Assembly: GCA_007922195.1 (NCBI GenBank)
Contig: ML681992.1
Coordinates: forward strand, 43,798,661-43,862,660
From: Podocnemis expansa
Lineage: Eukaryota; Chordata; Testudines; Podocnemididae
Direction: 5' to 3'
DNA: 64,000 nucleotides
The notes under the pieces were generated by a model. It saw only the letters and a program-made list of their open reading frames with translations. It searched no databases and was not told where the DNA came from. The translations under genes and the position numbers were made by a program. Positions 11,253 to 63,070 of this stretch are shown here, in pieces. Position 1 is the stretch's first letter, and every line of letters starts with the position of its first letter.

Positions 11253-11264
11253 CTTCATAAGGCC

Positions 11265-11436
11265 CAACCAACAAGGAGTCCTGTGGCACTTTAAAGACTA
11301 GTAAATTTACTTATCACATGAGCTTTTGTGGGAGAAAATCATTAGAAGTGGGAGTTTTTTCCCACAGAAGCTCATGTGATAAAAAAAGGTGTTAGTCTTC
11401 AGGAGTGTTTTGCTGAACTAGAGTACCCCTTTAGCA
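11265..11436. mobile_element. Inverted PLE-tail pair with a 12-bp target duplication
   Basis: The left arm (about 11270-11342) is the PLE tail read on the - strand and the right arm (about 11353-11426) is the same tail on the + strand, joined upstream of the AGCTCATG block. CTTCATAAGGCC occurs perfectly on both sides, at 11253-11264 and 11437-11448. The left arm stops at CAAGGAGTCC; the right arm continues into GCTGAACTAGAGTAC, the terminal PLE sequence. The palindrome therefore looks like one integration. Confidence 0.88.
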
Positions 11437-11448
11437 CTTCATAAGGCC

Positions 11449-14400
11449 ATGCTGCATGTAAAGCTGTCTAATATACTGTAATATATTGTTGGCAACTCAA
11501 TCTGGGCACAGCTTTCTGTGCTAATTTTTTTTTTTTTTTTGGCCAGAAAAATGCAGATTTGGGTTGTAGACTTTAACTATTTGTTTATTTGGGTCAATTC
11601 TGTGTGTGCATATGCCTGCTCACATGTGCATGTATGTATGTACATGTGTGCACGCATTCAATAAAAAAATGAAATGTCAAAAGGCTTGTTTTGCATTTCC
11701 AATAATTTTTTCAACTTTTTTATTTTAGAAAGATATTTTGTTTCAGAATTTCACTATTCTGGGTTTTTAAAAATTTCATTTCCAGTGGAACACAATTGTT
11801 TTCAACCCCCAAATTATATTTTCGTTTTTGTTTTGTTTTTTTTTTGTTTCACCAGAAAAAATGGAAAAGTTGATCCAGAACAAATTCTTCTTTTAAGCTT
11901 TCTGTTCAGTCACTCAACTGGGGGAGGGGCCAGGGGGGAATCAGTGATTCACAGAGCTGTATCAGCAACACAGAGCAGCAGAGTTTTGCTTAGCAAACTC
12001 TCGGTTTTAATGATTAGTCAGGATCATTTGTGTGCTCTTCAGGAGAGTAGGAGTTTTGAAATGTCAGTCAAAATGCACTCTGACTAATCATCTTTTTTTT
12101 TTTCAACCCAGATTTGCTAACACCAATACTAACATGCAAGGGATTATTATATATGATGTTTCCAAAGCTGAAAGGGAAACATCTTTGGAAATCTACTCCT
12201 CCCTCACCACATGTGCATTAAATGCAAAACAAATAAGCACAAACCATGCAGAGTAGCTCCTACATGTTCCAGAGCTCCCGTCCCTGGCTTGTAACCAAAA
12301 TATCTATTTCTCTCTCCTGTGAGAGTAGCAACCTCTTCTTTTAAGCCTGAACAGTTTCAGCTGCATTTGCTTTGCTTGCCACTGATACCTCCTTTTGCTT
12401 GCTCTGAGCATTAACTTCAGAAGCTAGCTCATTGGGTGCTTTTTTTTTCAGAACCTACACCTGGGTTGGGGTAGACTAGGACTTGGGGTCCTCTTTAAGT
12501 AGCCAAAAGACTGTGCACTCTGTCACAAAGACAGTGAAGTCCACCAGTCTAAGGATGAGATCTACAAAAGTAGGGTTAGTTGCTTAAATCCCAGTTTCAG
12601 GAGCCACAAAATTCCTGCTCAGCTGCCACTGAATCCCATAGGCCCTAAATGCAATCAGCACCTACTAAATTTCTGCTGTAAATGTTCCCTAGACAACTAG
12701 GCACATGCAGTCTTGCCTCCCTCCAGTTATCTAGATGCCAAAGTCCCAGAGCCATTCATGACGCCAGGTAAGATAGATGTCCCTCAGCCTCTCTCACCAA
12801 TGGGCAGGCTTACTCTGCAGTCACCTACCAGATCAGGTCCCATTCAAAATCTAACTGGAGGAGGAAGAGCAGGAAGAGGTGGTTGCAGGGCTGGCCCACC
12901 CATATAGATGAACTCAGTGGTTGCATACGGTGCCAGGCATTAAGGGGCACCAAAGCAGATGGAAGTGAGAGGTGTGGGAGACCTTGCATCAAACCCCTTC
13001 TCCCTGGGGGCAGAGCTGTGGTTTAGGGGATGGTAGTTGGGATGACAACCCCAGGCTTCATGGTTTGGTGGGCCCCACCCATGCCCAGCTGTGTGTAGCA
13101 TCAAAACTGAATGTGTGATGATTTTGTTATTTGGGTTGTTCTGAGCATGCTCATCTATGTGCCAGAAACAGACAGATAATTCCTGCAAAACACTGTTTCT
13201 GGTGCTACACTCTGGCTGCAATATACTCCTCTAGGGGACCAGGGCCTTGATAACTACTTGAACGTGACCCATCCAGCTCACCTGGGCTTCAGCTTAGCAT
13301 GAGGCTCAGGGCAAGGGTGGACCAGGTGATCTTTAATTTCAGCTTGTTCTACAGTGGGCCTTTCAGCACCTTGTCTCATGTTAGTCCATCATTTTTCAGT
13401 CCCAGGCTGCCCCCTCTTCCCTCCCTTCTTGCTTCTAGCTGGATGATAATTTACAGCTCCAGAGAGCTGCCACCTTTGTTCAGCATCTGAGCGCAGAACA
13501 ATGCTGAGGCTCTTTGGCCAGGAGCAAAGAGGGGAAGGAGGTATTGGGGGGTGGGAGAGAGAGAGAGAGAGAGAAAGGGAAGAGGAGATGAGGTGGAGAG
13601 GAAGAAGAAAACAAGGGAGGAGTAACACACAGGGTGATGGTCACAGAAGCTGTTCTGTACTACAGCTCCCTTGCCCCTCTGCTGGGGCTGCCCCAGATTT
13701 TTGCCCAGGGGCTTCTCTAGCTATAGGCAAACTAGGAAGATGCTCCCTGTGACCAGCTGTTTTCTGGGGGAAGCAGCACCACAGACCAGTCTATGTGTGA
13801 ATTGCAAAGTGCTCTGTTGTATAGCACTCTAACTGCCCTGGGTAGACCTTGCTGAGGTAAACTGAAAGGTGTCCTGTACAGATGATACCTGTGAGGAAAG
13901 AGACACTCAACAACTGGAGAAAAAAAATGTGGACTGTTGTTGGTGCCATCAGAAAACTGATTTCAATACTTCTCCTGGGATGTGGTTATAAGTTCTCTTA
14001 CTTAGTACAGTCAAGGAATATGAGCTACATTTCAAAGAACTTGGTGTAAATTTATGCTTCTTCAATCCGGTATTTCACAGAATGGAATATGCTGAGGTGA
14101 TTTACAAAATGAACAGGTTATTAAAATGAATGGTTTGTTAAGGTACAGATCTGTCTAAACAGGATGAAAATATAATGATAAACTAAAACTATATAGGCAT
14201 ATACCTTGCTGTTTCAGCCTTTCATGAACAATGTATACTGGTTAACATCATAAGAGTCAAAGATGGGGATTTTAGGGTTATTTTTTTTAATTGGCTGTTT
14301 TAATATTCTTTTTTTAATTGCATGGCAGTATGGATGCTTCTGTTTGGTTTCTGGGACACAGCGACCTTGTTTTCAAGAGTGGCCTGTGTATTTGTGACAA

Positions 14401-15265
14401 CACTTGTTTGCATTTGGTGCCTTGCCACATAACTGGTGTATGCAAAGAAAACACAGTTTTTGTTCAAATTGCAAGTTTTCATGGGCAAAACTGTGGATTC
14501 AGGTATCAAGATTTGGGGTTTGATCCCCCGTTGCATAACTCCCCCCCTTTGCAGCAGTGTAAATCCTTTCATTTAGTTCCAGTACAATTACTCCAACTTG
14601 AAACTGGCGTAACATGGTGGTTACTCAAGAAGTTGGCTGAGATGCTTGTGAAAATTCAGTCAATATAGCATAAACTCACATACCACAGAGGCCCTGTGAG
14701 TAATTGCTGAAGTTAATGAAGGAAAGGTGTTAATTTTCATGATTAGCTGTCTGACATCAAGCAGGCAGAAAATGTCCTCTTGTGCACCTTTGTTCATAAT
14801 CTTGCTCTAGCAGAGAAGTCTATATAATCTTTTATTTTAGAATAAATTACTCAATACCTTTACAACTTTGAAGACTTTAAATGTAAAATCTGAGTAAAGT
14901 TAGAGACCAGTGTAAAAACTTTTCTGGAATCTTAAATGCATTATTTGAAGTTTGCAGAGACTATTAACATTGTAAACAGAATAATTTACTTGCACTGCCA
15001 ACTGGCTTTTTGACTAACTGCATGAGTGCTTCCAACATGTTGTGCTGAGTTACATACATTTTGTGTTGATATGATGTGTAATGTGTGAAGACTTAACTGC
15101 TGTTGTGCAAATTTTCTATTAGATAAAACTTATGGGTAAAACATTACATTGTGAAGATAGGTGCTTAATTTTATAGCGATCTCACACACACGCACAGTAG
15201 TTTCCGAAATCTCTCTCACATGACATAATGACCTACTTGAGATAACTTCTGTAGGGCTTCTGCAC
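11449..15265. other. Anonymous DNA with simple repeats
   Basis: Contains poly-T runs (11525-11540 and near 11836-11846) and a (GA)n tract near 13555-13576. GC-richer sequence at 12,886-13,250 begins CAGGGCTGGC, like a hAT end, but no matching terminus or duplication was found. No exon is evident. Confidence 0.45.
13555..13576 (+). repeat. (GA)n microsatellite
   Basis: About eleven GA units followed by imperfect purine-rich sequence to about 13620. Open frames across it encode Glu/Arg repeats and are not genes. Confidence 0.9.
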
Positions 15266-15277
15266 CATCAAATTTAA

Positions 15278-15835
15278 CAAAAGAAGCAAGGAGTCCTGTG
15301 GCTCTTAAAGACTAACAGATTTATTTATCGCATGAGCTTTCATGGGAGAAAATCCCACTTTGTCAGACACTTTGAAAATGGGGGAACTTGCAGAATGGGA
15401 TGAAAATAAATGCAAGGGAGTATAAGAAATGGGATCAAGCCATACAGTAACAGAAAATCAGAGCATTTGTTAAGATTCAAACAGTGGGAAACAGCACATA
15501 GAGGAGGGTGAAGTCAAATTACCTGTTGAAATGGGAAAAGAAGCCATAGTCACGATGTGACTATGCACTGCTTTCACACTGTGCTATTTCCCAGTGTTTG
15601 AATCTTAACAACTGGTCTGATTTGCTGTTACTGTATGACCTGATCCCATGTCTTACACTCCCTTGCACTTATTTGCATTCCATTGTGCAAGTTCCCACAT
15701 CTTCAAAGTGTCTGACGAAGTGGGATTTTCTCCCATGAAAGCTCATACAATAGATGAATCTGTTAGTCTTTAATTGCCACAGGACTCCTTACTTCTTTTG
15801 CTGAACTAGACTAACACAACTGCTCCTTTGGAACT
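15278..15835. mobile_element. Inverted PLE-tail pair, long arms, with a 12-bp target duplication
   Basis: The left arm (15278 to about 15550) is on the - strand, from the tail back to the end of the endonuclease region (complement of ACTATGG...TTCCCATT). The right arm (about 15575-15835) is on the + strand and runs to the true terminus CTGCTCCTTTGGAAC. The perfect duplication CATCAAATTTAA lies at 15266-15277 and 15836-15847. The left arm lacks the last 35 bp or so that the right arm has. The unit is flanked as a whole, so the inversion existed at or before integration. Confidence 0.92.
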
Positions 15836-15847
15836 CATCAAATTTAA

Positions 15848-17240: not shown

Positions 17241-17246
17241 ACACAT

Positions 17247-20849: not shown

Positions 20850-20857
20850 CCCTAAAT

Positions 20858-22567: not shown

Positions 22568-22575
22568 GTCTAAGG

Positions 22576-22785: not shown

Positions 22786-22915
22786 GTCTAAGGGATACTG
22801 TACCTTCACAGACATTCAGTGTGTTTCTGGAACTAATTTTTTTACCTAGTGTGTCCCTGTTTGCTTGCAGACACTGGTAATGTGACAATACTCTATAAGC
22901 TCTCTAGTAAAGGGT

Positions 22916-23672
22916 TAAAAAAAGCAAGGAGTCTTGTGGCACTTAAACACTAAGGCTATGTCTACACAAAGTTATTTTGAAAGAAGTCATTTCGAAATGA
23001 CTTATTTTGAAATAAAACCCTTATTTCGAAATGACTTATTTCGAAATAAGGGAAAGCCTGCTATCAAAACGGCTGTTATTTCGAAATGGTTGTTTCAAAA
23101 TAAGACCATTTTGGACATGTTGTTTCGAACCAATGGTGTTGTTTTGAAACAACATGTCCGAACGGCCTTATTTCAAAATAACCAGCCGTTTTGAAACAAT
23201 GGTTCTTATTTTGAAAGGACAGGATCCGTCCTTTCGAAATAAGAAAACGTCACGTAGACCAAATTTCTTTTATTTCAAAATAACCAGTGCTATTTCGAAA
23301 TAAAAGTGCTGTGTAGACATAGCCTAACAGATTTTTTTACAGCATGAGCTTTCGTGGGAGAAGATCCCACATCGTCAAGACGCTTCGAAGAGGGGGAACT
23401 TACAGAATGGGATGAAAATAAATGCAGGGGAGTGTAAGACATGGGATCGGGTCCTACTGTTGCTGTTGCAACATGACCCGATCCCATGTCTTACACTCCC
23501 CTCCATTTATTTTCAACCCATTCTGTAAGTTCCCCCTCTTTGAAACGTCTGACGATGTGGGATTTTCTCCCATTAAAGCTCACGCTGTAAATAAATCTGT
23601 TAGTCTTTAAGTGCCACAAGACTCCCTGCTTTTTTTACCTGTTACTAGACTAACACGGCTGCCTCTCTGGAA
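22916..23672. mobile_element. Inverted PLE-tail pair with 12-bp duplication, split by a MITE
   Basis: The left arm (- strand) is 22916-22950 plus 23328 to about 23460; the right arm (+ strand) is about 23470-23672, ending CTGCCTCTCTGGAA. The arms meet around ATGGGATCGGGTC / GACCCGATCCCATG and are nearly symmetrical. CTAGTAAAGGGT is perfect at 22904-22915 and 23673-23684. The left arm again lacks the terminal 35 bp or so. A MITE (22954-23324) landed in the left arm later. Confidence 0.92.
22954..23324. mobile_element. TTCGAA-palindrome MITE inserted in a PLE tail
   Basis: Ends are GGCTATGTCTACAC and GTGTAGACATAGCC, perfectly inverted over 14 bp. TAA flanks it at 22951-22953 and 23325-23327. 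Removing the element and one TAA restores the PLE tail order CACTAACAG, which proves the boundaries. The interior repeats TTATTTCGAAATAA and its TTTTGAAA-type decay products. Confidence 0.95.
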
Positions 23673-23757
23673 CTAGTAAAGGGTGAATTTCAAGAGATGA
23701 GGAGTTTGGAATCTGATCGGATGATATTGCAGATGTCAGCTGTTGCTGGTGTTCTTA

Positions 23758-24488
23758 GGCTGTGTTCACACAGCATTTTTGTTTTGAAACAATGATGTTG
23801 TTTCGAAACAAAAAATACCATGTTCACACGACGCACAGTTGTTTCGAAACAACGGGAACCCGTTGTTTTGAAACAACAGCGTTGTTTCGAAACAAGTTAA
23901 ACCTAGTTTCTAGGCGAAACAACATTGTTTCGCAACGGTTGTTACAAAACAGCTCAGTGTGAACATGTTGTTTTGGAACAACGGCAATAACATTCGAAAC
24001 AACATTGGATCCTCAGCACCCTGGCCAGGGAACCCTCAGGACCCTGGCCAGGGTGCTGAGGGCTGTCCCTCAGCCCCAGAAAGGGGGCTGCAGCCCCTGG
24101 CAGTGGGGGTTGAGCTGCTGCGGGGAGGTTCAGCCTGCAGCCCGGGCTGCGGGCGGAGCCCAGTGCCCCCCACCCGCTGGCGGTGTCGGGAGGCAGCTCT
24201 GGAGGGGGGCTGAGCCACCCCACAGCGGCTCTCCCCCCCGCCCGTGGCTGCAGCCTCCTTTCTGGGGCTGCAGGGTGAGCCGCAGCAGTGGCTGCAGCCC
24301 CCCTGCAGCAGGTAACGAAATAGCATGTTCACATTGTGAACATGCTGTTTCGTTTCCCGCTTTTTCCCCTATTTTGAAATGACTTCTTGCTAATTCGAAG
24401 TAAGTCATTTCGAAATAAGGCGTTGTTTCGAAACAAGTTGTTTTGATACAACTTGTCTCGAAACAACCATCTGTGTGTGAACACAGCC
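23758..24488. mobile_element. Large MITE with GTTTCGAAAC palindromes and a GC-rich core
   Basis: Ends are GGCTGTGTTCACAC and GTGTGAACACAGCC, perfect 14-bp inverted repeats, with TTA at 23755-23757 and 24489-24491. The outer arms carry GTTGTTTCGAAACAAC-type palindromes. The core (about 24003-24320) is GC-rich with its own inverted repeats: 24071-24095 against 24246-24270, and CAGCACCCTGGCCAGGG against its complement at about 24014-24058. Open frames of up to 164 codons on both strands are a by-product of the palindrome. Confidence 0.9.
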
Positions 24489-24514
24489 TTAGAGTCTGCA
24501 GAGCTGATTTGAAA

Positions 24515-24602
24515 ATCTCTGGAGGAGATTTTCTCCCATGAAAGCTCATGCAATAAAGAAATTTTTTAGTCTTTAGAAGTGCCACCAGACTCCTTGTTTG
24601 TT
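24515..24602 (+). mobile_element. PLE 3' tail fragment
   Basis: Contains TTTTCTCCCATGAAAGCTC, then TTAGTCTTTAGAAGTGCC and GACTCCTTGTTTG. Strongly 5'-truncated, without the terminal 35 bp. Confidence 0.85.
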
Positions 24603-24858
24603 TAATTGTCTCTTTAAACTGCAATTAAACGCCCATAACTGGCCTGTGCTAGCTAAATCTGGATTGGTCAAAGGGGCTGTTCAGGTTCAGGCTGGAGAGC
24701 GGGTTCTACAATCCTGCAAAGTGAGAGGGTCTCAGAGCTTGGGCTGCAGTGCAGCCTAAGCCTGACCATTGCAGTGCAATTAAGCTGGCCCTCCAGCCAA
24801 GCCAGATTCAGCTGGCACAAGCCAACCAGGAATGTCTAATGGCAGTGTAGACATAGCC
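24603..24858. mobile_element. MITE of the CTGCAATTAAAC type
   Basis: The left side reads TTGTCTCTTTAAACTGCAATT; the right side reads TTGCAGTGCAATTAAGC and ends GTGTAGACATAGCC, followed by TAA. The interior has GGGCTGCAG and its complements. The left terminus is eroded, so the start is approximate. It belongs to the same end group as the GGCTATGTCTACAC elements but lacks TTCGAA palindromes. Confidence 0.55.
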
Positions 24859-25104: not shown

Positions 25105-25119
25105 ATCTAGCTTATCATC

Positions 25120-25563: not shown

Positions 25564-25575
25564 TCATAAACAGGC

Positions 25576-25718
25576 GAAACAAGCAAGGAGTCCTGTGGCA
25601 CTTTTAAAGACTAATAAGTTTATCACATGAGCTTTTGTGGGAAAACTCCCACTTTGTCAGATGCTTTGAAGATGGGGAACTTAACATAAACGTATCAAAC
25701 ATATCATATCACACCATA
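25576..25718 (-). mobile_element. PLE tail fragment with a target duplication
   Basis: The tail is on the - strand from CAAGGAGTCCTGTGGCAC through CCCACTTTGTCAGATGC. TCATAAACAGGC (25564-25575) and TCGTAAACAGGC (25719-25730) flank it, 11 of 12 matching. About 35 bp at the far side are not recognisable PLE sequence. Confidence 0.75.
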
Positions 25719-25730
25719 TCGTAAACAGGC

Positions 25731-27656: not shown

Positions 27657-28305
27657 TTTGACTGCTGTTTTTTTTCTGTTACACTCTCTCATCAAAGGGT
27701 ATGTAATCACACAGCTACTGGCTAGCTGGTTGAAGTTCAGACAGAAACAGACATGTCTACTGTAGGTGAAAGCACTTCAAAAACGGCACTAATTACAACT
27801 GGCCAAATTCATCTTCACTGTGACATCACTGATTACTTTGGTATGATTGGCAGAGATACATTGATCTTATGTGTTGTTGTGACTGTGAGAATAACGGTGA
27901 AATTCAAACTGTGTTCTCCCAGAAACTAGTTCTAAAGGGACAGGCGCAGGGTCACTGCTGGCACCTGGCACACGGGGCACATGCCCTGAGTCTCGGCGCC
28001 AGTGCCCTGAGTGTCTGGGCCGGCCCCATCCCAGATCAGGGACCCGGACTGGGGTGCCCTCCACAACACCCGCCTCTCCCGGCCCCATCCCAGCCCCAGC
28101 TGGGAATTGAGGGTGGGAAACCCACAGGAACGTCTGCCTCTCCTGGTCCCGAAACCAGCTGGGGACCTGGGTCCAGGCTGGAGGTGACAGAAGCCCAATG
28201 AATTATTGGGCCCAGGCACCACAATGTGGCCAAGGGGGCGTGGCCTGGGCCCAGGGGGCATGGCCTGGGCCCATGCCCCAGGTCTTTTCCGGGGCCAACA
28301 ACGTT
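27657..28305. other. Unassigned stretch with a GC-rich part
   Basis: 27943-28300 is GC-rich, with overlapping open frames on both strands and a two-unit direct repeat GGGGGC(G/A)TGGCCTGGGCCCA at about 28235-28273. It may be an old DNA transposon; no ends were found. Confidence 0.4.
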
Positions 28306-28601
28306 CCTGGACAGCCGTGTTAGCCTAGTTCAGTAAAACAAACAAAAAGCTTAAAGACTACTTACAGAAGAGGAAGAAATAAATGAAGGGAAGTGTAGAT
28401 CATGGGATCAGGTCATACTGTAACAGCACTCTTACTGGTACACTGTTATTGTGTGACCTGATCTTATGACTTACACTGCCCTGCATTTATTTCCTCCCGT
28501 TCTGTAAATTCCCCCATCTTCAAAGCATCTGACGACGTGGATTTATCTCCCATGAAACCTCATGCAATGAATAAATTTGTTAGTCTTTAAATGCCAGAAA
28601 A
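28306..28601. mobile_element. Inverted PLE-tail pair, left arm internally deleted
   Basis: The left arm starts with the true terminus in reverse (ACAGCCGTGTTAGCCTAGTTC), skips from TTAAAGACT straight to TTACAGAAGAGG, and meets the right arm near CATACTGTAACAG / CTGTTATTGTGTGACC. The right arm runs to TTAGTCTTTAAATGCCAG. Here the left arm has the terminal 35 bp and the right arm does not. No duplication was seen. Confidence 0.8.
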
Positions 28602-29055
28602 GTAGAGCTCTTTGGGGCAGGGACCACTTTTTAGTTCTGTTTGTCTTGCACCTAACACCATGGTGTCCTGATCCATGATTAGCATTTCTTGACACTATAG
28701 TAACACTAGTAATAAACTCAGTCCTATAGTAACCTGATCCCACCCTAGGAAGGAATATGGAGAGTCAATTGTTGTAAACAGTTTTTAGTTACACACTAAG
28801 CCCGTCATCAGCTAACACATAGGGATGAAAAGTTGTAGGAGCCAAGGGAGAACAATTAGGCACTTAGAGAAGCAAGTTGCTAAGTATTTTTGTAGCCAAG
28901 TGAGGAAGTGCTTGAAGATAGGGTTGAAAACAAGGCACCTGACTTACTACTTACATAGTCCTAATTCTGATCTCAAGTTGGTCTCAAGAAGCATAACTCC
29001 TGTGGTACTGACAGTTTATGTTGTAACAGTTTGTTAAGCATTAAAGTTTTAATCC

Positions 29056-29124
29056 GTGTCATCTCCCACAAACACTCGTGCAATAAATACATTTGTTAGT
29101 CTTCAAAAGTGCTACAAACTCCTT
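29056..29124 (+). mobile_element. PLE tail fragment, first of a direct pair
   Basis: ATCTCCCACAAACACTCGTG, then TTAGTCTTCAAAAGTGC and ACTCCTTGTTT, directly followed by a second tail. Subfamily with GCAATAAATACATT. Confidence 0.8.
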
Positions 29125-29242
29125 GTTTCATCCATCTTCAAAGCATCTGAGGAAGTGGGATTTTCTCCCACGAAAGCTCACGCGAAAAATAAATCTGTTA
29201 GTCTCAAAGTGCCCCACGACTCCTTGTTGTTTTTTTATGAAG
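29125..29242 (+). mobile_element. PLE tail fragment, second of a direct pair
   Basis: Starts CATCCATCTTCAAAGCATC and ends GCCCCACGACTCCTTG. Its CGCGAAAAATAAATC block matches the coding copy at 1-1757, so it is a different subfamily from its left neighbour. Confidence 0.85.
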
Positions 29243-30497
29243 TAGTTTGGTACTTCCATAATTTCCAGCAACTTGGAACTAAAAAATGCTTAAAAGTCAA
29301 CATTAATTTTATTAGTCAAATTAATACAAAAAATATATCTTCCAGGTCTATGTGTAAACTAGAGCAGAATTTGGTCCCAAATATTTGTTCAAAGATATTG
29401 ACAGGCTTGCACAGTTTATAGTCATGCTATTAGGCTGGAAGGTGAGGTGTCAAACACTGAAAGGTTTTCCTGCTTTCTGATTTGGAGTTGTTCATTTGAA
29501 TCTTCACAAATTCACATATTTCCTAACAGCACTCTGTTGTGTTTTTGTAATTAGGCATATTTAGCTATGCCTTGTTTTACAGCTACAGGAAAAATCTCAT
29601 TTGTCAGCAATTTTAAGCTTTGCCAAAGAAAGGCTTATTGGCAAACTGCATTGAGCACTGTGATAATAACCCAAGTTTAGAAAACAAACACCCTGTTGTG
29701 TTGTATTCAAGCCACAGTTCTTTTGAAATAGAAAGGGGAGACAATGCCTGCTTTCAAAAACCAGAGGTTCTTTGTATTCCAATAAAAGCCTAAATTAACG
29801 TTTTAAAAGGTTATTGCTATTTTTTCCCAGTTAGCTGGCACTGTTTGTAAATTTTATTTAGACAAGGTCCTACGTTGTTTCAGTACTTAACACATCCACC
29901 AAAATCAGTTTGCCTTGAATTATATTTCTGAAATTCATTAGTCCATCCTGCTTTCTCATCTTTGTAATTTGATTAGAATGCTGTTTCTAGGCATTGAGGA
30001 GTCCATTCTATGATGTTCATTGTGACGACACCAACAGGGACTGCCAGTATTACTAAGGTAGCCTAAAGGACATATGGCAAAAATAACCTCATCGTGCCTG
30101 CATTTCAGATTGAATCATCCATGTGGGGTCCTTTTTATAAACCAAAGTAACAGAAACTATGTATAGTTTAATCTCTGGCTTTTGATACTTTTCCTTTGTC
30201 TTTTAAAGAGTCACCTAGAAAATGTAAAAATATACTGTCAGCTATGAAATTCTACAGTACTGATGCACTAAACCAATAAAATATTTTTGCATTAAATTGC
30301 ACTTTATGTAGTAATATAACCTTATGTAATTCTGAACTCTATAATCCCACCTTTAGATCCCAATCTGGGAGGTCAGTGAGGAAAGCAGAGGAATGTTTCC
30401 CACAGTTCGTTGTTCACATAGAGTGTGCGATTTGCCTGTGAACATGAGGGATGCATAAGGAACTTAGACTGAACTTTACCAATTCGTATTTACAGAC
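29243..30497. other. Anonymous A/T-rich DNA
   Basis: Nothing recognisable on either strand. Confidence 0.45.
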
Positions 30498-31437: not shown

Positions 31438-31884
31438 CACTCCAAAGGGGTAGCCGTGTTAGTCTAGTTCAGGGGTCTGCAGCCTGCGGCTACAGTTCTT
31501 TGGCTGCCCCCCCCCCCCATGGCTGCAACCCTCCGTTTCTACCACCCCTACTGGGCGACCCTTGAGCAGCCCAGTTCAGGCTCTACTCGCCGGACCCTGT
31601 CACCAGGGGACCTTGTGGGTAGCCTTCACCAGGCTCCCACCCACCCATCAGGGGACCTTGTATCAGATGCCCTGGCCCAGCTCTCCCCACCAGGAGACCA
31701 CACTCATTGCAGCTCTCAAAACACTTGATTATTGAAGGAATTTTTAAAAAATGGCTCTTCTCATCTTTTGGGTTGCCAACCTCTGGTCTGCATCAGGAAA
31801 ACAAACAAGGAGTCCTGTGGCACTTTTAAAGATGAATACATTTATTAATTGAACAAGCTTTGGTGGGAGAAAAATCCCACAAAA
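31438..31884 (-). mobile_element. PLE tail fragment with a target duplication, split by a hAT
   Basis: The - strand tail begins with the true terminus in reverse (CCAAAGGGGTAGCCGTG), is interrupted by a hAT, then continues ACAAACAAGGAGTCCTGTGG. CCCTCTGCAGTGA is identical at 31425-31437 and 31885-31897. Confidence 0.9.
31470..31785. mobile_element. Short hAT element, family 1, nested in a PLE tail
   Basis: Starts CAGGGGTCTGCAGCCTGCGG, ends GTTGCCAACCTCTG. GTCTAGTT (31462-31469) and GTCTGCAT (31786-31793) flank it; the second copy has drifted but is in the correct place, since the PLE reads GTCTAGTTCAG at this point. Confidence 0.88.
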
Positions 31885-41402: not shown

Positions 41403-42660
41403 GTGATATGTAACCTATCATTTAAATCAGCTTCTGGGGATGAGTGGAGGGTAGCTTATGTGACACCAAAATTTAAAAAAGGCTCCAGAAGCAATCCTGG
41501 CAATTACATGCTGGTAAACCTAACTTCAGTACCAGGCAGACTGACTGAAACTATAGTAAAGAACAAAATTATCAGACACATAAATGAATTTAATTTGTTG
41601 GGAAAGAGTCGCCTTAGTTTTTGTAAAGGGAACTCATATCTTCCCAATGTACTAGAATTCTTTGAGAGGGTTGAGAACCATGTCGCTAATGGTAATCCAC
41701 TGGGTGCAGTGTAATTAAATTTTTAAAAAGCCTTTGACAAGGTTCCTTACCAAGGCTCTTAAGCAAAGTAAGTAGTCTTGGGATAAGAGGGAAGGCCCTC
41801 TCCTGGGACAGTAACTGCTTCAAAGACAGGAAAGATAGGGTAGGAATAAATGGTTAGTTTTCAGAATGGAGAGAGGTAGATAGTGGTGTCCCCCCAAGGA
41901 GTCTATAGTGGATCCAGTACTGTTCAACATTTTCATAAATAATCTGGAAAAGGAGGTGAACGGTGAGATAGCAAAATTTGCAGATGAGACAAAAATTACT
42001 CAAGTTAGAACAAACAAATCTATTTATCGCATGAGCTTTTGAGAGAGAAATCCCACTTCATGAGATGCTTGAAGATGGAGAACTTACAGAATGGGAGGAA
42101 AAATAAATAAATAAACTTAATATCATGGTTACCCCTTTGGAACTGCTCAAGAATAGTAAGCCCAAAGAAGACTGCAAGAATTTACAAAAGTATCTCACAA
42201 AACAGGGTAACTAGGCAAGAAAATGGCGGATGAAATTTGATTACTTTGATAAATGCAAAGTAATGCACATTGAAAACATAAACCCAACCATACATAAAAA
42301 TGATGGATCTAAATTAGCTGTTACCACTTAAGAAAAAGATCCTGGAGTCATTGTAGGTAGTTTTCTGAATATATTCACTCACTGTTCAATGGCAGTCAAA
42401 AAGGCTAATAGAATATTAGGAACCATTAGGAAAGGGATAGATAATAAGACAGAAGATATTTTATTGCTGCTTTATGAATCTATGGTATGCCCATATTTTG
42501 AATAGTGTGTGTAGATCTGGTTGTCTCATCTCAAAAAAATATATTTTGGAATTGGAAAAGGTGCAGAAAAAGACAACTAAAATGATTAGGGGTATGGAAA
42601 AATTTCCATATGAGGATGGTATAGAAAGTTTAGAATTTTTCAGCTTGGAGAAGAGATGAC
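41403..42660 (+). pseudogene. CR1-type ORF2 reverse transcriptase, decayed
   Basis: WRVAYVTPKFKKGSRSNPGN, then LVNLTSVPGRLTE and ETIVKNKI mark the fingers; later KKTTKMIRGMEKFPYED and LEFFSLEKR mark the C-terminal part. The catalytic motif region (about 41710-41990) is frameshifted, and the PLE insertion follows near 42000. The order matches the two better-kept CR1 copies in this window. Confidence 0.8.
42000..42139. mobile_element. PLE insertion with inverted layout inside the LINE
   Basis: Starts with a - strand tail (ATTTATCGCATGAGC, CCCACTTCATGAGATGC) and ends with the + strand terminus GGTTACCCCTTTGGAAC. CTCAAGTTAGAA on the left and CTCAAGAATAGT on the right may be a diverged duplication; a related LINE reads CAAGATAGTTAAG there. 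This would be a shortened inverted pair. Confidence 0.65.
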
Positions 42661-43112: not shown

Positions 43113-43753
43113 TAAAAATCAATTTTGGTTCCTTTTTGTCTTGTAGTTTTAACCTTTAAGGTTCACTTTTTCTCACATTTACCAGTTTTTCCCTGCAGCC
43201 GTGAGGACTTTAAACTTATCTCTCCCCCCCCACCAGCTGACATTCTTAATTCCATCTGACCCCTGCAGGCGGGGCACCAAATATTTTGCAATACATGATA
43301 AATCACAAGAACTGGCAACACAGCTGATGCAGTTTCTAGTCATGTTGGCTGAGAACTCAAGAACAGAAAAACAAAACTGTTAAGAAGGCTCTGACTTGGT
43401 GTCATGCCTATTAGAATGATTACTCTCCGTGGACTTTACCTCCAATCTATGGTAGCAAACTGGAGGTGGGGGCCATAGGTATATTTTGTCTTTTCATTTT
43501 TCCGTGCTCCCTTTGTTTTCATAGACATGGTTATTAAATGTGCAAACATTCGTTCTGGGAAAATTGAATACTTAAGTACAAATCTCAGAGAGAAATACTC
43601 CAGGCAGTTGGTACCCTTTGCTATAAATCACAATCACTTAGAAATTCAAATGTAGTACAAATGGCAAGTACACACATAATTACAATTGAATTGTAAGTTT
43701 ACAATGTGCAATAAACAACATTACGAATCACTGGACTCAGATGATGACAAGTT
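43113..43753. other. Anonymous DNA
   Basis: Nothing recognisable apart from a short C run at 43224-43230. Confidence 0.35.
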
Positions 43754-43852
43754 CTAGAGGAGTAGTAGCCTTGGTCTAGGTCAGCAAAACAAAGAAGGAG
43801 TCCTGTGGCACTTTTAAAAACTAACGAATTTATCGCATGAGCTTTTGGATTT
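43754..43852 (-). mobile_element. PLE tail fragment left of the DIRS-like element
   Basis: The - strand tail starts with the terminus in reverse (GAGGAGTAGTAGCCTTGG), then AGGAGTCCTGTGGCAC and TCGCATGAGC. It has the terminal 35 bp. An oppositely oriented tail lies at 47256-47297, across the DIRS-like element. Confidence 0.8.
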
Positions 43853-44591: not shown

Positions 44592-45228
44592 GGCAGGGGT
44601 GGCCAAAGACGACAAGGGCAGCCATGTGGGGAACAGCACAAGGGTGCCAAGAGAAGAGCGGAGAAAGGAGAACAGGAGTGGCTTTGGGGGGAGGTGGGGG
44701 GGAACCTAGGGAGTGGGAAGGTAGGGCAAGGGAGCACGGTGCAGCACCCACTTCCCACTTTCTCCACAGTGGCTCCCTGCAACCCAGGGCAAATTCTCAC
44801 CCTACTACTACTCCCTCCCACCCCAGTGGGTTCCATTCCCCCCTCCCCTAGCCCCCTGCTGCCTGTGATGGACCCTCCCATCACTGCAGGGGCCAGAACT
44901 ATCCCTCCAGGCCCCAGCTCATCCCCCCACAGCTACACCCCCCCAGCCAAACAGCCACCCCACAACCTCAGCTACACACCCTCTGCTAAACAGCCACTCC
45001 CACCCACCTCTGCTACACACATACCCCCTGCCCCCAACAAGCCCCAGCAGCCCCCCTCAAAGCCCTTACCTTGGCTGTTTGCAGGCTGGCTGACAGGCTG
45101 GGAGCTGCTTCCCTGCCACAAACTACTTTGTGGGGCCCCCTAAAGGGCTCACTCTCGGCCCCTACTACTACCTTCCCTGTGGCCCCACTCCCCCCCTGCA
45201 GCCCTAACCACCCCACACGACCCCCCAG

Positions 45229-45286
45229 GACACCTTTTTTGTTTTGCTGAACTGAACTAACGTGACTGTCTCTCTGGAACTTGTAA
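45229..45286 (+). mobile_element. PLE terminal fragment
   Basis: TTTGCTGAACTGAACTAACG and CTGTCTCTCTGGAAC: only the last 50 bp or so of the PLE tail, inside the hAT. Confidence 0.7.
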
Positions 45287-47255: not shown

Positions 47256-47297
47256 TTGTTAGTCTTTAAAAGTACCACAAGACTCCTTGTCTGTAAT
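47256..47297 (+). mobile_element. PLE tail fragment right of the DIRS-like element
   Basis: TTAGTCTTTAAAAGTACC, then AAGACTCCTTGTCTG. Lacks the terminal 35 bp. With 43754-43852 it could be the second arm of an inverted PLE pair into which the DIRS-like element inserted. Confidence 0.7.
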
Positions 47298-47539: not shown

Positions 47540-49735
47540 CTACAACTTGAAACCATTGCTCCTTGTTCTGTCCTCTGTTACTACTGAGAACAGCCGAGCT
47601 CCGTCCTCCTTGGAGCATCCCTTCAAGTAGCTGAAGGTTGCTATCAAATCCCTCCTCAGTCTTCTCTTCTGCAGGCTAAATAAGCCTAGTTTCTTCAGTC
47701 TTTCTTCACAGGTCTTGTGCTCCAGCCCCTTGATCATTTTTGTTGCCCTCCACTGGACTCTAATTTGTCCACGTCCTTTTTGTAATGAGGAGCCCAAAAC
47801 TAGACACAGTATTCCAGACGTGGCCTCACCAGTGCCGAATAGAGGGGAATGATCACATCCCTCGATCTGCTGGCAGCACTTCTGATGCAGCCCAGTATGC
47901 CATTGCCTTTTTTAGCAGCAAGAGCACACTGCTGACTCATATCCAGCTTCCCATCCACCAGGACCTCAGGTCCTTTTCTACAGTGCTGCTACTTAGCTGA
48001 TCGCTCCCCAGCCTGTAGCAGTGCATGGGGTTTTTCCGTCTCAAGTGCAGGACTTTGCACTTATCCTTGTTGAACCTCATGAGATTTCTATTGGCCCACT
48101 GCTCCAATTCGTCAAGGTATCCCTGAATCCTGTCCCTGCCCTCCAGTGTGTCTACCGTTCCCCCCAGCTTGGTGTCATCCATAAACTTACGGAGTGTGCA
48201 GTCTATCCCATCATCCAGATCATTAATGAAAATGTTGCACAGAACTGGTCCCAGGACCAACCCCTGGGGCACACCACTCGTTACTGGTTGCCAACTAGAC
48301 ATGAAGCCATTGATTCCTACATGCTGAAACCATTGATCTAGCCAGTTCTCTATCCACTATACACTCCACACATCCAACCCATACTTCCTTAACTTGCCGA
48401 TGAGAATGCTGTGGAAAGCCATATCAAAAACCTTGCTAAAGTCGAGGTATATTACATCAGTGGCTCTTCCCACATCCACAAATCCAGTCATCTCATCATA
48501 GAAGGTGATGAGGTTAGTCAGGCATGATTTACTCTTGGTAAATCCATGCTGACCATTCCTGATCACTCCGTTTTCCTCCAAGTGTTTCAGGATGGATTCG
48601 TTGAGAACCTGCTCCATGATTTTTCCAGGGATTGAGGTGAGGCTGACAGGTCTGTAATTCCCTGGATCCTCCTTTTTGCCTTTCTTGAAGATAGGCACTA
48701 TATTTGCTTTTTTCCATTCCTCCGGCACTTCCCCTGTTCGTCACGAGTTTTCAAAGATAATGGCCAGCAGTATTGCTATCTCATTGGCCAATTCTCTCAG
48801 CACCCTCGGATGCAGGTCGTCCGGCTCCATGGACTTGTGCCCATCCAGCTTCTTTGAGTAGTTCCTAACCTGACCTTCTGTCACCAATGGCCTCTCTTCT
48901 TCTTTCCAATCTGGGAGCTGGCCCTGCCTGTGAAAACTGAAGTAAAAAACGCATTGAGCACTTCAGCTTTTTCCTCATCCTCCATCACAAGGATACCAGC
49001 CTCATTCATTAAGGGACCTACACCATCCCTGATTCTCTTCTTGTTATTGACATACTTGTAGAGCCCCTTCCTGTTATCCTTCACATCCCTTGCTAACCAC
49101 AACTCCAGCATCTTGAACTTTATTATCTCATGGTCACTGCTGCCCAGGTTGCAATTCACTTCTATTTCTCCAATTAATTCTTCTCTGTTTGTGTGCAGCA
49201 GGTCAAGAGGTGCAAGGCCCCTAGTTGGTTCCCCCAGCATTTGTACCAGGAAGTTGTCCTCAACACTCTCCAAAAACTTCCTGGCTTGCCTATGTACTGC
49301 TGTACTGGCCTCCCAGCAGATGTCAGGGTAACTGAAGTCCGCCATGAGGGTCTGTGATCTAGAAACTTCTGCCAGTTGTCCATAGAATGCCTCATCCACC
49401 TCCTCCTTCTGGTCTGGAGGTCTACAGCAGACACCCACCACCACATCCCCCTTGTTGCTCTCTCCTCTCAACTTAACCCACAGACTTTCAACTGGCTCGT
49501 TTCCACTTCCATAATGGAGCTCTGAGCAGTCATAGAGCTCTTTTACATATAGTGCTACTCCTCCCCCTCTTCTTCCCTGCCTGTCCTTCCTGAACAATTT
49601 ATACCTATCCATTGCAGAACTCCACGTCTCTGTTATTCCAGTTATATCATAGCCCCTTGTCTGCGCCAGTACTACCAATTCTTCCTGCTTGTTTCCCAGG
49701 CTCCTCGCATTCGTTTACAGGCACCTAAGATACCA
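47540..49735 (-). pseudogene. CR1 ORF2: endonuclease and reverse transcriptase
   Basis: The endonuclease frame (49735 to about 48880) shows DITGITETW, RGGGVALYVKEL, FSYPDICWE and NLGSSDHEII (the SDH catalytic block). The reverse transcriptase follows: PEEWKKANIVPIFKKG, PGNYRPVSLTSIPGKI, VIYLDFSKVFD, SGVPQGLVLGP and FMDDTKLGGT, in which the usual FADD reads FMDD with both Asp kept. The C-terminal [19 protein letters not shown] is last. A few frameshifts and stops (around 48880, 48360, 47937 and 47800) break it. Function in active copies: nick target DNA and copy the RNA onto it. Confidence 0.9.
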
Positions 49736-55438: not shown

Positions 55439-55877
55439 GGCTATGACTACACCAAAAATCTTAGTTCGGACTTGGTTAGTCCGAACTAAGTAATTTGAAA
55501 GTTAGTTTGAACTAAGCGCAATTTTTTAGTTCAAACTAACTTTTAGTTCAAACTAACTGTGCATTTTTTTAGTTCAAACTAACTTTTTAGTTCAAACTAA
55601 CAAAGCGCAGTTAGTTCGAATTAAAAATTAGTTTGAACTCAAAAACCATGCTTAGTTCAAACTAACTGCTAGTTAGAACTTATTTAGTTTGAACTAGCAT
55701 GGCCTACATCATGCTAGTTTGAACTAAATTTCAAAATACATGCAAACTAAGCTTTGCTTAGTTCAAACTAAATTTTGTTTTTAGTTCTAGGTAGGCAAAG
55801 CTTAGTGGACACAGGGTTCAAAGTAGTCCAAACTAAACTTGCTTAGTCCAGACTAATTTGCTCGGGTAGACATAGCC
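55439..55877. mobile_element. MITE with TTAGTTCGAACTAA palindromes
   Basis: Ends GGCTATGACTACACC and GGGTAGACATAGCC. Flanks AAA / AAT do not match perfectly. The interior is an array of TTAGTTCAAACTAA and TTAGTTTGAACTAA, decayed forms of a TTCGAA-cored palindrome, in alternating orientation. No coding capacity. Confidence 0.85.
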
Positions 55878-58800: not shown

Positions 58801-59886
58801 CTTGCCACCCTAAAGTTAAATGAAAACCCTGTCTCCAGATGAGACGGCACTGTCCTTGTCCTCAGAGATCCTTGTGTGTTGTGGTGCAAAGCTGATGCAT
58901 GCAGTAGCTGTCAGTCCAAAAAAAAGGCCATTTCTGAGAAGCTGTAGTTTGCCCTAGCAAACTTCAAGTAAATTAATTGTGGAACAACATGACATGTGTT
59001 TTTGGCCTCCTCAAATGGAACATGCTCCTTATAAAATAGGCATGCTGTAGAGTTCTGACATTTCCAAGTAAAACAATAGGGCCACTAGAATGGAAAGTTT
59101 GCAGGAACAGCAGACAAGGAAAGGAAGTTTAGGTTGAACAAAGGTTTTTTCATTTTTACAGCCCCTAGAGGCAGAACAATACTGTACAGAAGCAGTTAAT
59201 GATGGGCTGGATTGGAAGGCAGAAATCTGTGCCAAGATCTAAATGTGTTTTTGCTCTGAACTCTCCAGCTGTCCAGTTACAGTGCAGAATTTCCAACTGG
59301 TGCAAACCCAATGGAATTGTTGGATAGGAGGGGAAAAAAAAAAAAGGAGGGAAAAATCCACCACGCATTGTTCCCCTCACTTGCACCACTTCTCTCCTTC
59401 TTGATAAATTCAGTTAACTTCCGCTAAGCAGCAAGTTATTTTGTGCTGGCTGAAAAATATTTAGTTGACCTTAACTCCTAGGTTCTAGGAAGGAATTGTG
59501 TTGTACTGAACAGCTTGCATAGGTAACTATGGAAACTCTCCTCAGTTAGGATTTCTATGAACTGTTCATAAGTGAAAACAGCTTCAATCCACTGTTGCTG
59601 TTTAATAAATAATCCACTAGTAGAGGAAAAATTCAGAGTTGGGGAAATCATATTCTTTTAAACAAGGTACTACTAATAATTGGAAAATGAGTTGGAAAAG
59701 GCAGTTTTGCAATATTTCCATTACATGACTTTGTTCCTTCAGGATATTAAGAAATCACTCTCATACACATCCCCACAAGTCTGCACAGATGTGAAGAACT
59801 GGTAGAGGAACTCTTTAGGTCATTGCTGGTAGCTAGAAGAGAAGGGTTTAGATCCTGCTGCTAGAAATCCTTCAGTCATAAATCTG
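55878..59886. other. Anonymous DNA
   Basis: No gene or clear repeat. A poly-C run lies at 58148-58160 and a poly-A run near 59334-59344. Short open frames lack motifs. Confidence 0.45.
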
Positions 59887-59889
59887 ATA

Positions 59890-60313
59890 GGGTATGTCTA
59901 CACATCTCTTTTATTTCGAAATAACACTGGTTATTTCAAAATAAAAGAGATTAGGTCCACATGACATTTACTTATTTCAAAATGACAGGATCCGTCATTT
60001 CAAAATAAGAAGCGTCGTTTTGAAACAGCTTAAACCCCATTCATTTCAAAACTGCTGTTATTTCGAAATGATTATTTTGAAATAAGGCCATTTGGACATG
60101 TTGTTTTGAAACAACACCATTGTTTCGAAACAATTATTTTGAAACATGTCCAAACGGCCTTATTTTGAAATAACCATTTCAAAATAAGAGCCGTTTTGAT
60201 AGCAGGCTTTCCCTTAATTCGAATTAACATTTTCTTAATTCCAATTAACTTATTTCAAAATAAGGACTTCAAAATACTTATTTTGAAATAACGATGTGTG
60301 TGTAGACATAGCC
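59890..60313. mobile_element. TTCGAA-palindrome MITE at a PLE tail
   Basis: Ends GGGTATGTCTACAC and GTGTAGACATAGCC; flanks ATA (59887-59889) and TTA (60314-60316). The right flank continues as TTAGTCTTTAAAAG, the PLE tail, and the left flank reads ATAAATCTGATA, so the insertion is in CTGTTAGTC. The interior has TTATTTCGAAATAA-type palindromes, mostly decayed to TTTCAAAA and TTTTGAAA. Confidence 0.92.
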
Positions 60314-60388
60314 TTAGTCTTTAAAAGAGCCACAGGGATCCTTGTTTGTTTTGCTGAACTAGACTAACAGGACGCTCTTTTTGGAACA
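60314..60388 (+). mobile_element. PLE tail right of the MITE
   Basis: TTAGTCTTTAAAAGAGCC, then TTTGCTGAACTAGACTAAC, ending CTCTTTTTGGAAC at the full terminus. The left part of the tail, across the MITE, is only a dozen recognisable bases. Confidence 0.85.
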
Positions 60389-60618
60389 TCAGTCATACTG
60401 TAAAACTGATCTCATTATCTGAGGCCTGCATGACAGAATCAGAAATTTCCTTCAAATGCATAGTCCCACGAGGATTAATAGAGCTTCTCATATGCTTAAA
60501 GTTAGGCAGATATTTAACTACCTTGGAAAATCAGGGCCTTAGTTACCCTGGTGTAATTCTGTTGAAGTATATCTGGTTGACAGAATTGGATCCAAAGTGG
60601 TCTGCTGTTACAGCAGCT

Positions 60619-60785
60619 CAGGGCCGGCACAACGCGGTAACCAAGGTAAGCGTTGCAGGGGGGTGCTGACGTTTGAGGGGCGCCCAAATGGGGACTGTGC
60701 CATTGTGCTGCACTGTGATGTCACTCGTCTGCCCGGGCGTCTGTTGCGCTCCAGGGGGGCGCCAGAAACCCTAGCGCTGTTCCTG
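60619..60785. mobile_element. Small hAT element, family 3
   Basis: Starts CAGGGCCGGCACAACGC, ends GCGCTGTTCCTG; CAGCAGCT is perfect at 60611-60618 and 60786-60793. Shares its ends and GGGGGGCGCCAGAAA with 44492-44591. Confidence 0.9.
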
Positions 60786-60793
60786 CAGCAGCT

Positions 60794-62728
60794 TACATTT
60801 TGTTTGAATTTTTGACAGTCTCACAGAACATGTTTTGCTTTCTTTTAAGCTGGCTGAGATGAAATATGTTTGGAAATTGTGATGAAATTTCATGGAAATT
60901 TGTGAAAAGATATGTTCACCAAAAATCGTCAACATTTTCTAATAAGCTCAGCTTGCAGCATTTTTATTGAATCTGGTCAGTCATCTGCTTCATGGGAAAA
61001 CCTGGAGGGGAGAGGGTTTACACAATTTTTCCCATAGAGAGGTCTTCCAGAACAATCCTAGGTGTGGCGAAGCTTTCCTCACTGCTTCTAAGCCATCAGT
61101 AGATTTGACACCCACAAATCTTAGGAGAAATGCTCAAGGCCAGAGTCATATTTACATCTCCCCATTCAAGCTTCAGCTCCCCCTTGTATGCCACAGAGCG
61201 TCTCCATGAAAGCACACTCCCTGTTGCCAAGACCTTCATTCGGGGCTGCTCCAGAGAAGACCATACTGCACAAGGTAGAACATCAACTTTAATGTTTGTT
61301 CCATCAAAATGAGCTTTCTTGGGGAATCCATGTACAACTGAGAGATGGTAATGCAGCACCCGTTCTGTAGCTCCTTACTACCCCAAACCCAAGGATTAGA
61401 TTTCAGTATTGTTCCTTACAGACCCGTGTTGAGGGACGCCCTCCTCTGCATAAATTATTTTGACTATTTACTTGTTCAGCGCATTAGTTGTGACTTTAGT
61501 GGCAAGCTTGTTTATAGTAGAGCTACTCTGCATTCTGGATTGGGAATCAAAGCCCTCTGTAGGACCCAGACTTGATCTCAATGACTTCAGTAGTAGCCCG
61601 AACACTTGAAATCTTGGCTTAGGTGAAACCTGAAAGAAATCCAGTACGCAGTTATTTCCTGCAATAAATAGGGAAGAAGGCTGGATGTTTGCACTATTTA
61701 ACTGGGGCCAAATAAGTATGTCTGAAGAGCAACAACCATTGTTATGAGTACATAAAACTTCTGCTCTGAGCTCTACAGTGGCTATTTGTCCATTGTAAAT
61801 GCAGCTCAAGGGGCAGGCTAGGATCCTCGCTGCCTTTTTCATTAGTGTACTATCTCACCTCAGCAATTAAGATCTGCTAAAAAGATATGGCTGCTGTGGG
61901 TTCTTGTAATGGACCTCTTCTTGACCAGTGGCAGAGCATTCTCAGTAGAAGACCCTTTCATGGGGTACCTGTTGTTACTGCCACAGTCAAGAACAACTGG
62001 TTTAAGGGGACAGTTTATAGCTGATCCTTTTAATAGCTCTTCTCAGTTCTCATAGAATTCCCATCCCTGTAGTATGTGAGCACCTCTCAATCTTTATCCT
62101 TCCAACACACCAGTGAGGCAACAAAGCACCCTCCTTTTCACTTTACAGATAGAGAAGTGAGACACAAAGACCACAGGTCAAATTTTTAAAGCTATTTAGG
62201 CACTTTCCCTGGGCACCTTTATGCACTGTGAGTTTCAGAAGTGTCCGAAAATCTTACTGTGAGCCTGTCTGCATCCTTATGTGCATCTCTACCTCCAGAA
62301 AACAGTCAGAAGCTCATTGGAGGAGGAGTCTTCTTGTTCTGTTTGTTGATATTGTGCATAGAGCAGTGGAGTCCTCGTCCAGGCTTAGATGCTATGGCAG
62401 TACAAATAACAATTGGAGTTTCGGTGCTCAAAGTAAAGTGTGCTTGTGTCTGCAGGACTGAGCCCTAAGTTGCCTTAATCAAAAAAGAGATTCTTGACAG
62501 AACAAAAATAAAACCTTGGCCCTGATCTTGTGAACTGATCTTTGAGGATGGACCGTTGTGCGTTTGCAGAAAGGTGTTGACTTCAGCAAATCCTCAGTGC
62601 ATTCAAGAGCTGTCTGTGTGGATCAATCCACAGACTGACTGAAAAACAAGAATGGGCCTGGGCACTAGCCCAGGACTTAAGCCTTGTCTACCCTGGGGGT
62701 GGTGTTATAATTTGATTTTAAGCTGTCA
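60794..62728. other. Anonymous DNA
   Basis: No gene recognised. 62075-62180 (CACTTTACAGATAGAGAAGTG) resembles a reverse-strand MIR tail but is weak. Confidence 0.4.
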
Positions 62729-62740
62729 AATTGCAGAAGT

Positions 62741-63057
62741 TCCAAAGGAGCAGCCACGTTAATCTAGTTCAGTAAAACAAACAAGGATTCCTATGACACT
62801 TAAAGACTAACAAATTGCTATATTGCATGAGCTTTCATGGGAGAAAATCCCACTTCATCTGATGCTTTGAAGATGGGGGAATTTATAGAATGGGAGGAGA
62901 TAAATGCAGGGAAGCGAAAGTCATGGGATCAGTTCACACCTCCCTGCATTTATTTCCTGCCATTCTGTAAGTTCCCCCATCTTCAAAGCGTCTCCCACAA
63001 AAGCTCATGCAATAAATCAGTTTGTTAGTCTTTAAGCACCACAGGACTCCTTGTTTG
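62741..63057. mobile_element. Inverted PLE-tail pair with an imperfect target duplication
   Basis: The left arm (- strand) starts with the true terminus in reverse (TCCAAAGGAGCAGCCACG) and runs to about 62935; the right arm (+ strand) ends CAGGACTCCTTGTTTG without the terminal 35 bp. AATTGCAGAAGT (62729-62740) and AATTACAGAAAGT (63058-63070) flank it. Confidence 0.85.
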
Positions 63058-63070
63058 AATTACAGAAAGT

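Follow-up and report, generated by a model that had tools for sequence, protein, structure and literature searches.

How do two 3' tails of one retroelement come to lie head to head inside a single insertion? The question is raised by a 64-kb stretch of the Podocnemis expansa genome (assembly GCA_007922195.1, total 2.39 Gb; contig ML681992.1, positions 43,798,661 to 43,862,660), called here the window, which is the whole stretch of DNA analysed (64,000 nt, 43% GC). Tails of a Penelope-like element (PLE) recur in it as inverted pairs, with the 3' ends of the arms outward and the 5' ends meeting. The tail of these palindromes was assigned to a PLE because an open reading frame (ORF) in the window continues directly into it, that is, by linkage and not by recall. 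A preliminary description reported five such pairs (near 11.3, 15.3, 22.9, 28.3 and 62.7 kb), and all five were confirmed. It overlooked that the pairs are asymmetric: one arm has the full 3' end and the other lacks about 35 nt. Each inverted pair is probably the product of one two-sided target-primed PLE insertion.

Inverted pairs and their outer edges

Perfect 12-bp target-site duplications (TSDs) enclosed the units at 11.3, 15.3 and 22.9 kb (12/12 each), and an imperfect one (9/10) enclosed the unit at 62.7 kb, as first described. The TSD score of each of these four units exceeded all 182 cross-locus flank pairings, and the 62.7-kb score was equalled or surpassed in 1 of 400 random placements. 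In the 11.3-kb unit the duplication (11253..11264 and 11437..11448) flanked a short-edge arm on the minus strand (11265..11340; outer gap 38 nt, inner end 113 nt from the full end) and a full-edge arm on the plus strand with internal deletions (11345..11436; inner end 120 nt); the alignment of the latter ended 22 nt early, the remainder being placed by eye, and the arm was unreadable under the automatic edge rule. In the 15.3-kb unit (TSD 15266..15277 and 15836..15847) a short-edge minus arm (15278..15579; outer gap 35, inner end 332 nt), reaching into the last ~18 codons of the ORF, was followed by a full-edge plus arm (15580..15835; 0 and 257 nt). The 22.9-kb unit (TSD 22904..22915 and 23673..23684) comprised a short-edge minus arm interrupted by a nested inverted-repeat element at ~22954-23320 (22916..23460; 36 and 207 nt) and a full-edge plus arm (23460..23672; 0 and 215 nt). 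In the 62.7-kb unit (TSD 62729..62738 and 63058..63067) the minus arm was the full one (62739..62939; 0 and 204 nt) and the plus arm the short one (62940..63057; 40 and 182 nt). Read by eye, all four units thus had one full and one short edge, in either orientation.

The unit at 28.3 kb consisted of a full-edge minus arm with an internal deletion (28301..28428; aligned to 9 nt before the end, remainder by eye) and a plus arm whose outer part is gone (28443..28602; outer gap 56 nt), and showed no readable duplication. The missing TSD may be explained by the right flank (28610-28660), which resembles what we take to be the 3' end of an old repeat of the long interspersed nuclear element (LINE) type. 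A sixth locus, at 42.0 kb, had been proposed as a shortened pair. Its anatomy fits, with a minus arm eroded at the outer end (42005..42108; outer gap 69 nt) and the last 24 nt of a full-edge plus arm (42121..42144), but its TSD is marginal: the 7/8 match was equalled by 7 of the 182 cross-locus controls and by 24 of the 400 random ones. An assembly or sequencing fold-back artefact was ruled out for the pairs, since the two arms of one window pair have diverged by 9-22%.

Outer edges were measured by alignment to a 335-nt tail consensus. Among the 23 window arms, eight had an edge 0-3 nt from the full end and 10 had one 34-41 nt away from it; the remaining five (9, 22, 26, 56 and 69 nt) were deleted or unclear. 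The two edges, 35 nt apart, lie 125 nt (full) and 90 nt (short) from a hammerhead-like core. The window alone was weak evidence that each pair takes one edge of each kind (P 0.23 for four pairs; 0.07 for six, with eroded ends taken as short), and the genome sample was the window plus 82 stretches of the same assembly, fetched with about 1.5 kb of flank. The 15.3-kb query gave 7786 first-look candidates, of which 40 were scored, and all 40 listed matches were taken; the 22.9-kb query gave 1543 candidates, of which 40 were scored, and 41 of the 42 listed matches were taken, the 42nd lying inside an already fetched locus. Neither query contains the terminal 35 nt.

A fixed script called a pair wherever a minus arm was followed directly by a plus arm and their inner ends were separated by -15 to +60 nt. 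Fifty-two were found; 43 remained after nine duplicates or paralogues were dropped (L001, L042, L047, L041, two in L071, one in L050, L006 and L022), and 30 after a further 13 with an unreadable edge were set aside. The row in L050 was dropped by judgement (same structure on the same contig). The window units at 11.3 and 28.3 kb were among the 13, and the 42.0-kb unit was missed by the rule.

The fetched loci showed the same two edge classes, apart from a few intermediate values. Mixed edges, one full and one short, were found in 29 of the 30 readable independent pairs (15.2 expected; exact P 1.4e-7 given the margins); one pair was short at both edges and none was full at both. The full arm was on the left in 15 mixed pairs and on the right in 14. 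Eleven loci fetched after the rules had been set gave six pairs, five of them readable and all five mixed. Tail-to-tail neighbours, the control, comprised four pairs with two short edges, three with two full edges and seven mixed, among 14 readable of 20 (duplicates not removed). Some choices of counting bear on the total: L022 was short at both edges by the rule, yet is a paralogue of L006 and L024, in which the corresponding end is full, and counted apart it would give 29/31; the L043 pair (2208-2315) sits in a repeat array, and its exclusion would give 28/29. A near-obligate rule of one edge of each kind was observed, and only the genome sample makes it strong.

At a score of at least 7, 19 of the 30 readable pairs had a TSD, vs. 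13 of 870 cross-locus controls, and at a score of at least 9 the counts were 15 of 30 vs. 1 of 870. Most pairs thus share a duplication at the looser threshold and half of them at the stricter. The fixed length given at first holds only roughly: supported TSDs measured 8-15 bp with a median of 12, which is typical but not constant. Together with the rare variants shared within pairs (below), these counts strongly support the original proposal of one integration and not two hits. Single copies carried TSDs too, at a lower rate (8 of 51 clean singles vs. 13 of the 24 pairs then available, at a score of at least 8; Fisher p 9e-4), though the count for singles is a lower bound, their inner ends being harder to place, and it overlooked two window singles (25.6 and 60.3 kb) with TSDs from hand-placed edges. 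A lower rate in singles fits the loss of an overhang not used as primer.

Arms of the same pair clearly resembled each other more than they resembled arms from other loci. Within 27 pairs, 32 rare variants were shared in 4135 columns, vs. 142 in 104552 across pairs, and none of 10000 partner permutations reached this. In the window, the within-locus pairing of left and right arms ranked 3rd of 120 by identity, with 13 shared derived states in five pairs vs. 11 in 40 cross comparisons, and in a tree without the 11.3-kb unit the arms grouped at 15.3 kb (ultrafast bootstrap, UFBoot, 92) and 22.9 kb (96).

Arm lengths were coupled in the window alone (6 of 720 permutations) and, mildly, in the genome sample (rho 0.47; 128 of 20000 permutations), as expected if both cDNAs can extend to where a single RNA, or similar RNAs, begin. 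In 12 of the 29 mixed pairs the two arms differed in length by no more than 40 nt (4.9 expected; 12 of 20000 permutations had as many). By a margin of over 20 nt, the short arm was the one reaching deeper in 15 mixed pairs and the full arm in eight; in six the two ended within 20 nt of each other. The longest pairs had up to about 1.4 kb of element within one arm and, with the 15.3-kb left arm entering the ORF, they show that pairs without any coding part, as the palindromes had first been characterised, are only the short end of a continuum.

In 24 pairs the two arms, judged from the ends of alignment pieces, either overlapped at the junction by at most 4 nt or were separated there by at most 37 nt, as in end joining. 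Inner junctions differed between independent loci, the sole repeated one being an inverted junction common to L006 (850-1800), L022 (170-1790) and L024 (1480-2500); the flanking DNA of these three is partly homologous, so that they are probably one insertion copied with its surroundings. Elsewhere, inner ends spanned 35-1435 nt in full arms and 71-1406 nt in short ones. Inner ends ~389-391 nt from the full end recurred in L035, L064, L067, L080, L025 and L024, perhaps because the template RNA tends to begin there or because the reference used here is broken at that point. In L043 (1799-2247), the terminal 40-50 nt of the tail occur six times in one direction at intervals of about 80 nt, possibly a satellite seeded by the tail.

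Proposed two-sided insertion and its rivals

In a two-sided insertion the PLE enzyme would cut both strands to leave 3' overhangs of about 12 nt, and the 3' end of each overhang would prime reverse transcription of PLE RNA. One start, at the distal site, would give the full tail; the other, at a proximal site 35 nt further inside, would give the short edge. Both cDNAs would extend inward to variable lengths, end joining would then unite their free ends by way of short overlaps or filler, and fill-in of the overhangs would create the TSD. Palindromes devoid of coding sequence would be events in which both cDNAs ended early. A single integration, edges of one kind each, a common source of template and variable junctions can be read from the DNA; a dimeric enzyme, the copying of the same RNA or of sister RNAs, and end joining are what we infer behind them. 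Judged by polarity, the antisense arm at the top-strand 3' end and the sense arm at the right flank would be the first strands of two reverse transcription reactions from one staggered break, with either one RNA or two sister RNAs serving as template.

A biochemical precedent is the Poseidon protein PAc of Anolis carolinensis (Frangieh et al. 2024, PMC11167929), which cuts each of the two target strands and extends it. Its reverse transcription starts at two adjacent internal sites that bound a tail of 30-40 nt, most often 111-118 nt into the ORF; on the template printed there, our own count places the start 117-124 nt from the hammerhead core. The edge positions found here match the PAc start sites closely.

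Several points weigh against two-sided insertion. Eleven of the 30 readable pairs had no TSD at a score of at least 7, and the 13 pairs set aside were unreadable at one or both edges. The loci were not drawn at random, being the best-scored matches to two queries, and most of them had been seen before the edge classes were defined, so that only the five pairs from the last 11 loci are a clean test. The only non-mixed readable pair, L038, is short at both edges with a weak TSD; its left arm is 75% identical and, by eye, resembles an older subfamily. In the tree, the arms at 28.3 kb grouped with a support of 64 only and those at 62.7 kb did not group. Singles begin at either site (21 short-edge and 30 full-edge among the clean ones), which implies that coupling of the two starts is not required for insertion. 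Finally, in vitro the PAc start site does not differ between top and bottom strands, and the available text of Frangieh et al. (PMC11167929) contains no report of start sites coupled between strands; the lack of a strand difference does agree with either arm being the full one here (15 and 14).

Other origins were weighed against the same data. Two separate insertions, or a later rearrangement, could have put tails head to head where PLE tails are as dense as here, and the pairs lacking a TSD would suit such a history; the single TSD around 19 of 30 pairs, the one-of-each rule and the shared variants speak against it, tail-to-tail neighbours follow no edge rule, and its probability is close to negligible. 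Template switching, one of the two origins first suggested, found no support, since a cDNA moving onto another sense RNA would be expected to yield tandem and not inverted copies. The second, a self-standing fold-back family copied as hairpin RNA, would need a shared inner junction, and junctions differ between loci. L006, L022 and L024 do have one in common, but their partly homologous flanks make duplication with the surroundings probable; the inner ends elsewhere span the wide ranges given above, and the left arms in the window share derived variants with the right arm of their own locus and not with other left arms. Such a family is highly improbable.

Two further explanations derive the second arm from the first cDNA. 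By snap-back self-priming the cDNA would fold back and be copied, which would account for shared variants and for the excess of near-equal arms, and palindromes at junctions have been reported in Adineta vaga (PMC3846280). A copy of the full arm cannot, however, extend beyond it, and in 15 of 29 pairs the short arm does so by more than 20 nt, which would require subsequent trimming of the full arm; nor can the short arm be the template, being without the tail. Full arms can be as short as 35 nt (L043) and 24 nt (42.0 kb), some short-edge arms stand alone inside a TSD (25.6 kb, L008 and L018), and the short edge corresponds to a start site, not to a stop. Snap-back is largely refuted by the sign of the arm-length difference and is very unlikely. 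If the first cDNA instead moved onto antisense PLE RNA that begins at the short edge, the outcome would also be inverted, near-equal arms and a fixed short edge, and bidirectional promoter motifs have been proposed for the pseudo-long terminal repeats (pLTRs) of A. vaga (PMC3846280). Such a switch demands a precise antisense transcript, though, where the short edge is already explained by the proximal start site measured on sense RNA (PMC11167929), and it offers no reason for short-edge singles nearly matching full-edge ones in number; we give it the same low credence as snap-back.

Two-sided insertion can be extended by a more tentative proposal, which we hold at somewhat under an even chance: the PLE RNA would have two start sites because each serves one strand of the break, a dimeric enzyme copying one RNA twice, one cDNA per strand, and being obliged to use one site for each. 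The 35-nt tail would then reflect how far apart the two active sites lie along a single template, and a normal mode of PLE integration would be two-sided insertion and not one-sided target-primed reverse transcription.

The PLE element and other tails in the window

The 3' part of a PLE ORF (copy B, 2..1534, plus strand; two in-frame stops precede the terminal one) encodes a reverse transcriptase (RT) domain (RVT_1, E 2.7e-11) and, C-terminally, a GIY-YIG endonuclease (PF01541, E 3e-6 with X placed at the in-frame stop; the two ORF pieces searched separately gave no GIY-YIG match). In a PDB comparison of the RT, the top three chains were telomerase RTs at a weak E of 0.02, followed by retron and group II RTs (0.04-0.09). 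The protein had 1675 homologues at E<=0.001; among the best 120 listed, the top named ones were from turtles and the nearest named was from Chrysemys picta (78% identity). The tail of copy B (1477..1758, plus) has a short outer edge, 36 nt before the full end, as has the 5'-truncated copy A (1871..2259, plus); no convincing TSD was found for either copy. The traits of endonuclease-containing PLEs found here were the RT domain, the C-terminal GIY-YIG in the same ORF, pLTRs in tandem or inverted arrangement, and a tail on some 3' ends only (35 nt here, with bimodal edges). Same-strand neighbouring PLE tails, the tandem pLTR arrangement, also occurred in the genome sample.

The hammerhead-like core of the tail (CTGANGA, a stem and GAAA) was recognised by eye; an Rfam scan of the window gave 21 matches, all under gathering scores and nearly all of them miRNA hairpins, with no hammerhead at E<=1. 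On folding, the terminal 74-76 nt were better than shuffles in one of four copies (z -2.16; the others +0.46, +1.41 and +1.71), which does not support a structural claim for the tail. One pattern scan each of a genome-contig and a viral-contig collection gave no match. Five inner ends, in the window copies at 11.3, 24.5, 29.1 and 31.8 kb, lie 108-120 nt from the full end, inside the stem of that hammerhead-like motif, as though the RT had stalled at this point. At 15545-15565 the short arm of the 15.3-kb unit contains a perfect inverted repeat of 9 bp around a 3-nt loop, where copies A and B read differently.

Three single tails had a TSD: a short-edge arm (25574..25703, minus; decayed TSD, 14/16, or 16/18 by eye if extended), a full-edge arm with a nested insertion (31441..31880, minus; 13/13) and a full-edge arm (60314..60387, plus; 9/9). 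No TSD was found for the full-edge arms at 43750..43845 (minus) and 45223..45281 (plus), the short-edge arms at 24527..24603 and 47257..47294 (both plus), or two tails in tandem (29062..29245, plus), of which the upstream one has a short edge and the downstream one an unclear edge at 26 nt. The nested inverted-repeat elements (~22954-23320, 23757-24493 and 59891-60313) are rich in TTTCGAAATAA or similar; their ends resemble GTGTAGACATAGCC, TTA or TAA appears to be duplicated beside them, and PLE arms are interrupted by two of these elements. A 277-aa ORF (48881-49714, minus) resembles what is presumably the endonuclease part of a CR1-type LINE.

Comparison with known systems

PAc resembles the turtle system in its two edges 30-40 nt apart, at a comparable distance from a hammerhead motif, and its enzyme is a predicted dimer (PMC11167929). 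Unlike here, its top and bottom strands were read separately, and the available text does not state if both strands of one molecule are extended, nor from which sites. Frangieh et al. present their work as a starting point, with validation of the subsequent steps still to come.

In A. vaga, GIY-YIG Penelope elements (Pen2a and others) include PLE copies preceded by an inverted pLTR (PMC3846280; a general note on such inverted pLTRs is found in PMC8969392). There, one inverted pLTR has a 31-bp tail (PMC3846280) and an inverted pLTR is 37 bp shorter than the full ones; TSDs were 8, 9 or 10 bp in the named cases, and some copies were without; self-priming on an antisense template was suggested by its authors for the inverted repeats. 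Inverted pLTRs with the tail on one side are common to both systems. The A. vaga cases shown have an ORF or other sequence between the pLTRs, and the tail is termed optional, whereas in the turtle both arms may be tail only, the median TSD is 12 bp and the one-of-each rule is near-obligate. In introns of Drosophila virilis, three cases of inverted Penelope fragments less than 100 bp apart were described, in the part of PMC1431729 available without analysis of TSD, edge or mechanism; the mean Penelope fragment on the dot chromosome was 199 bp. Inverted pLTRs with a one-sided tail were already known; the near-obligate rule was not found in the literature searched, which did not extend to Craig 2021, Pyatkov 2004 or Schostak 2008.

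PLE integration is poorly known, and if the rule holds genome-wide, fossil insertions are a readout of its mechanism. The rule, if it does, would explain the one-sided tail, the commonness of inverted pLTRs and the head-to-head meeting of arms, and it yields a prediction that can be tested directly on purified enzyme from Anolis. In LINE-1 twin priming, both ends of one break prime reverse transcription to give inverted cDNAs, the second primer annealing internally at variable places. The turtle pairs agree with this in their inverted arms inside one TSD, the priming itself being deduced; they differ in that the second edge is fixed near 35 nt and both starts lie in the same 3' region. PLEs would then have a two-ended insertion chemistry unlike that of R2 and LINE-1.

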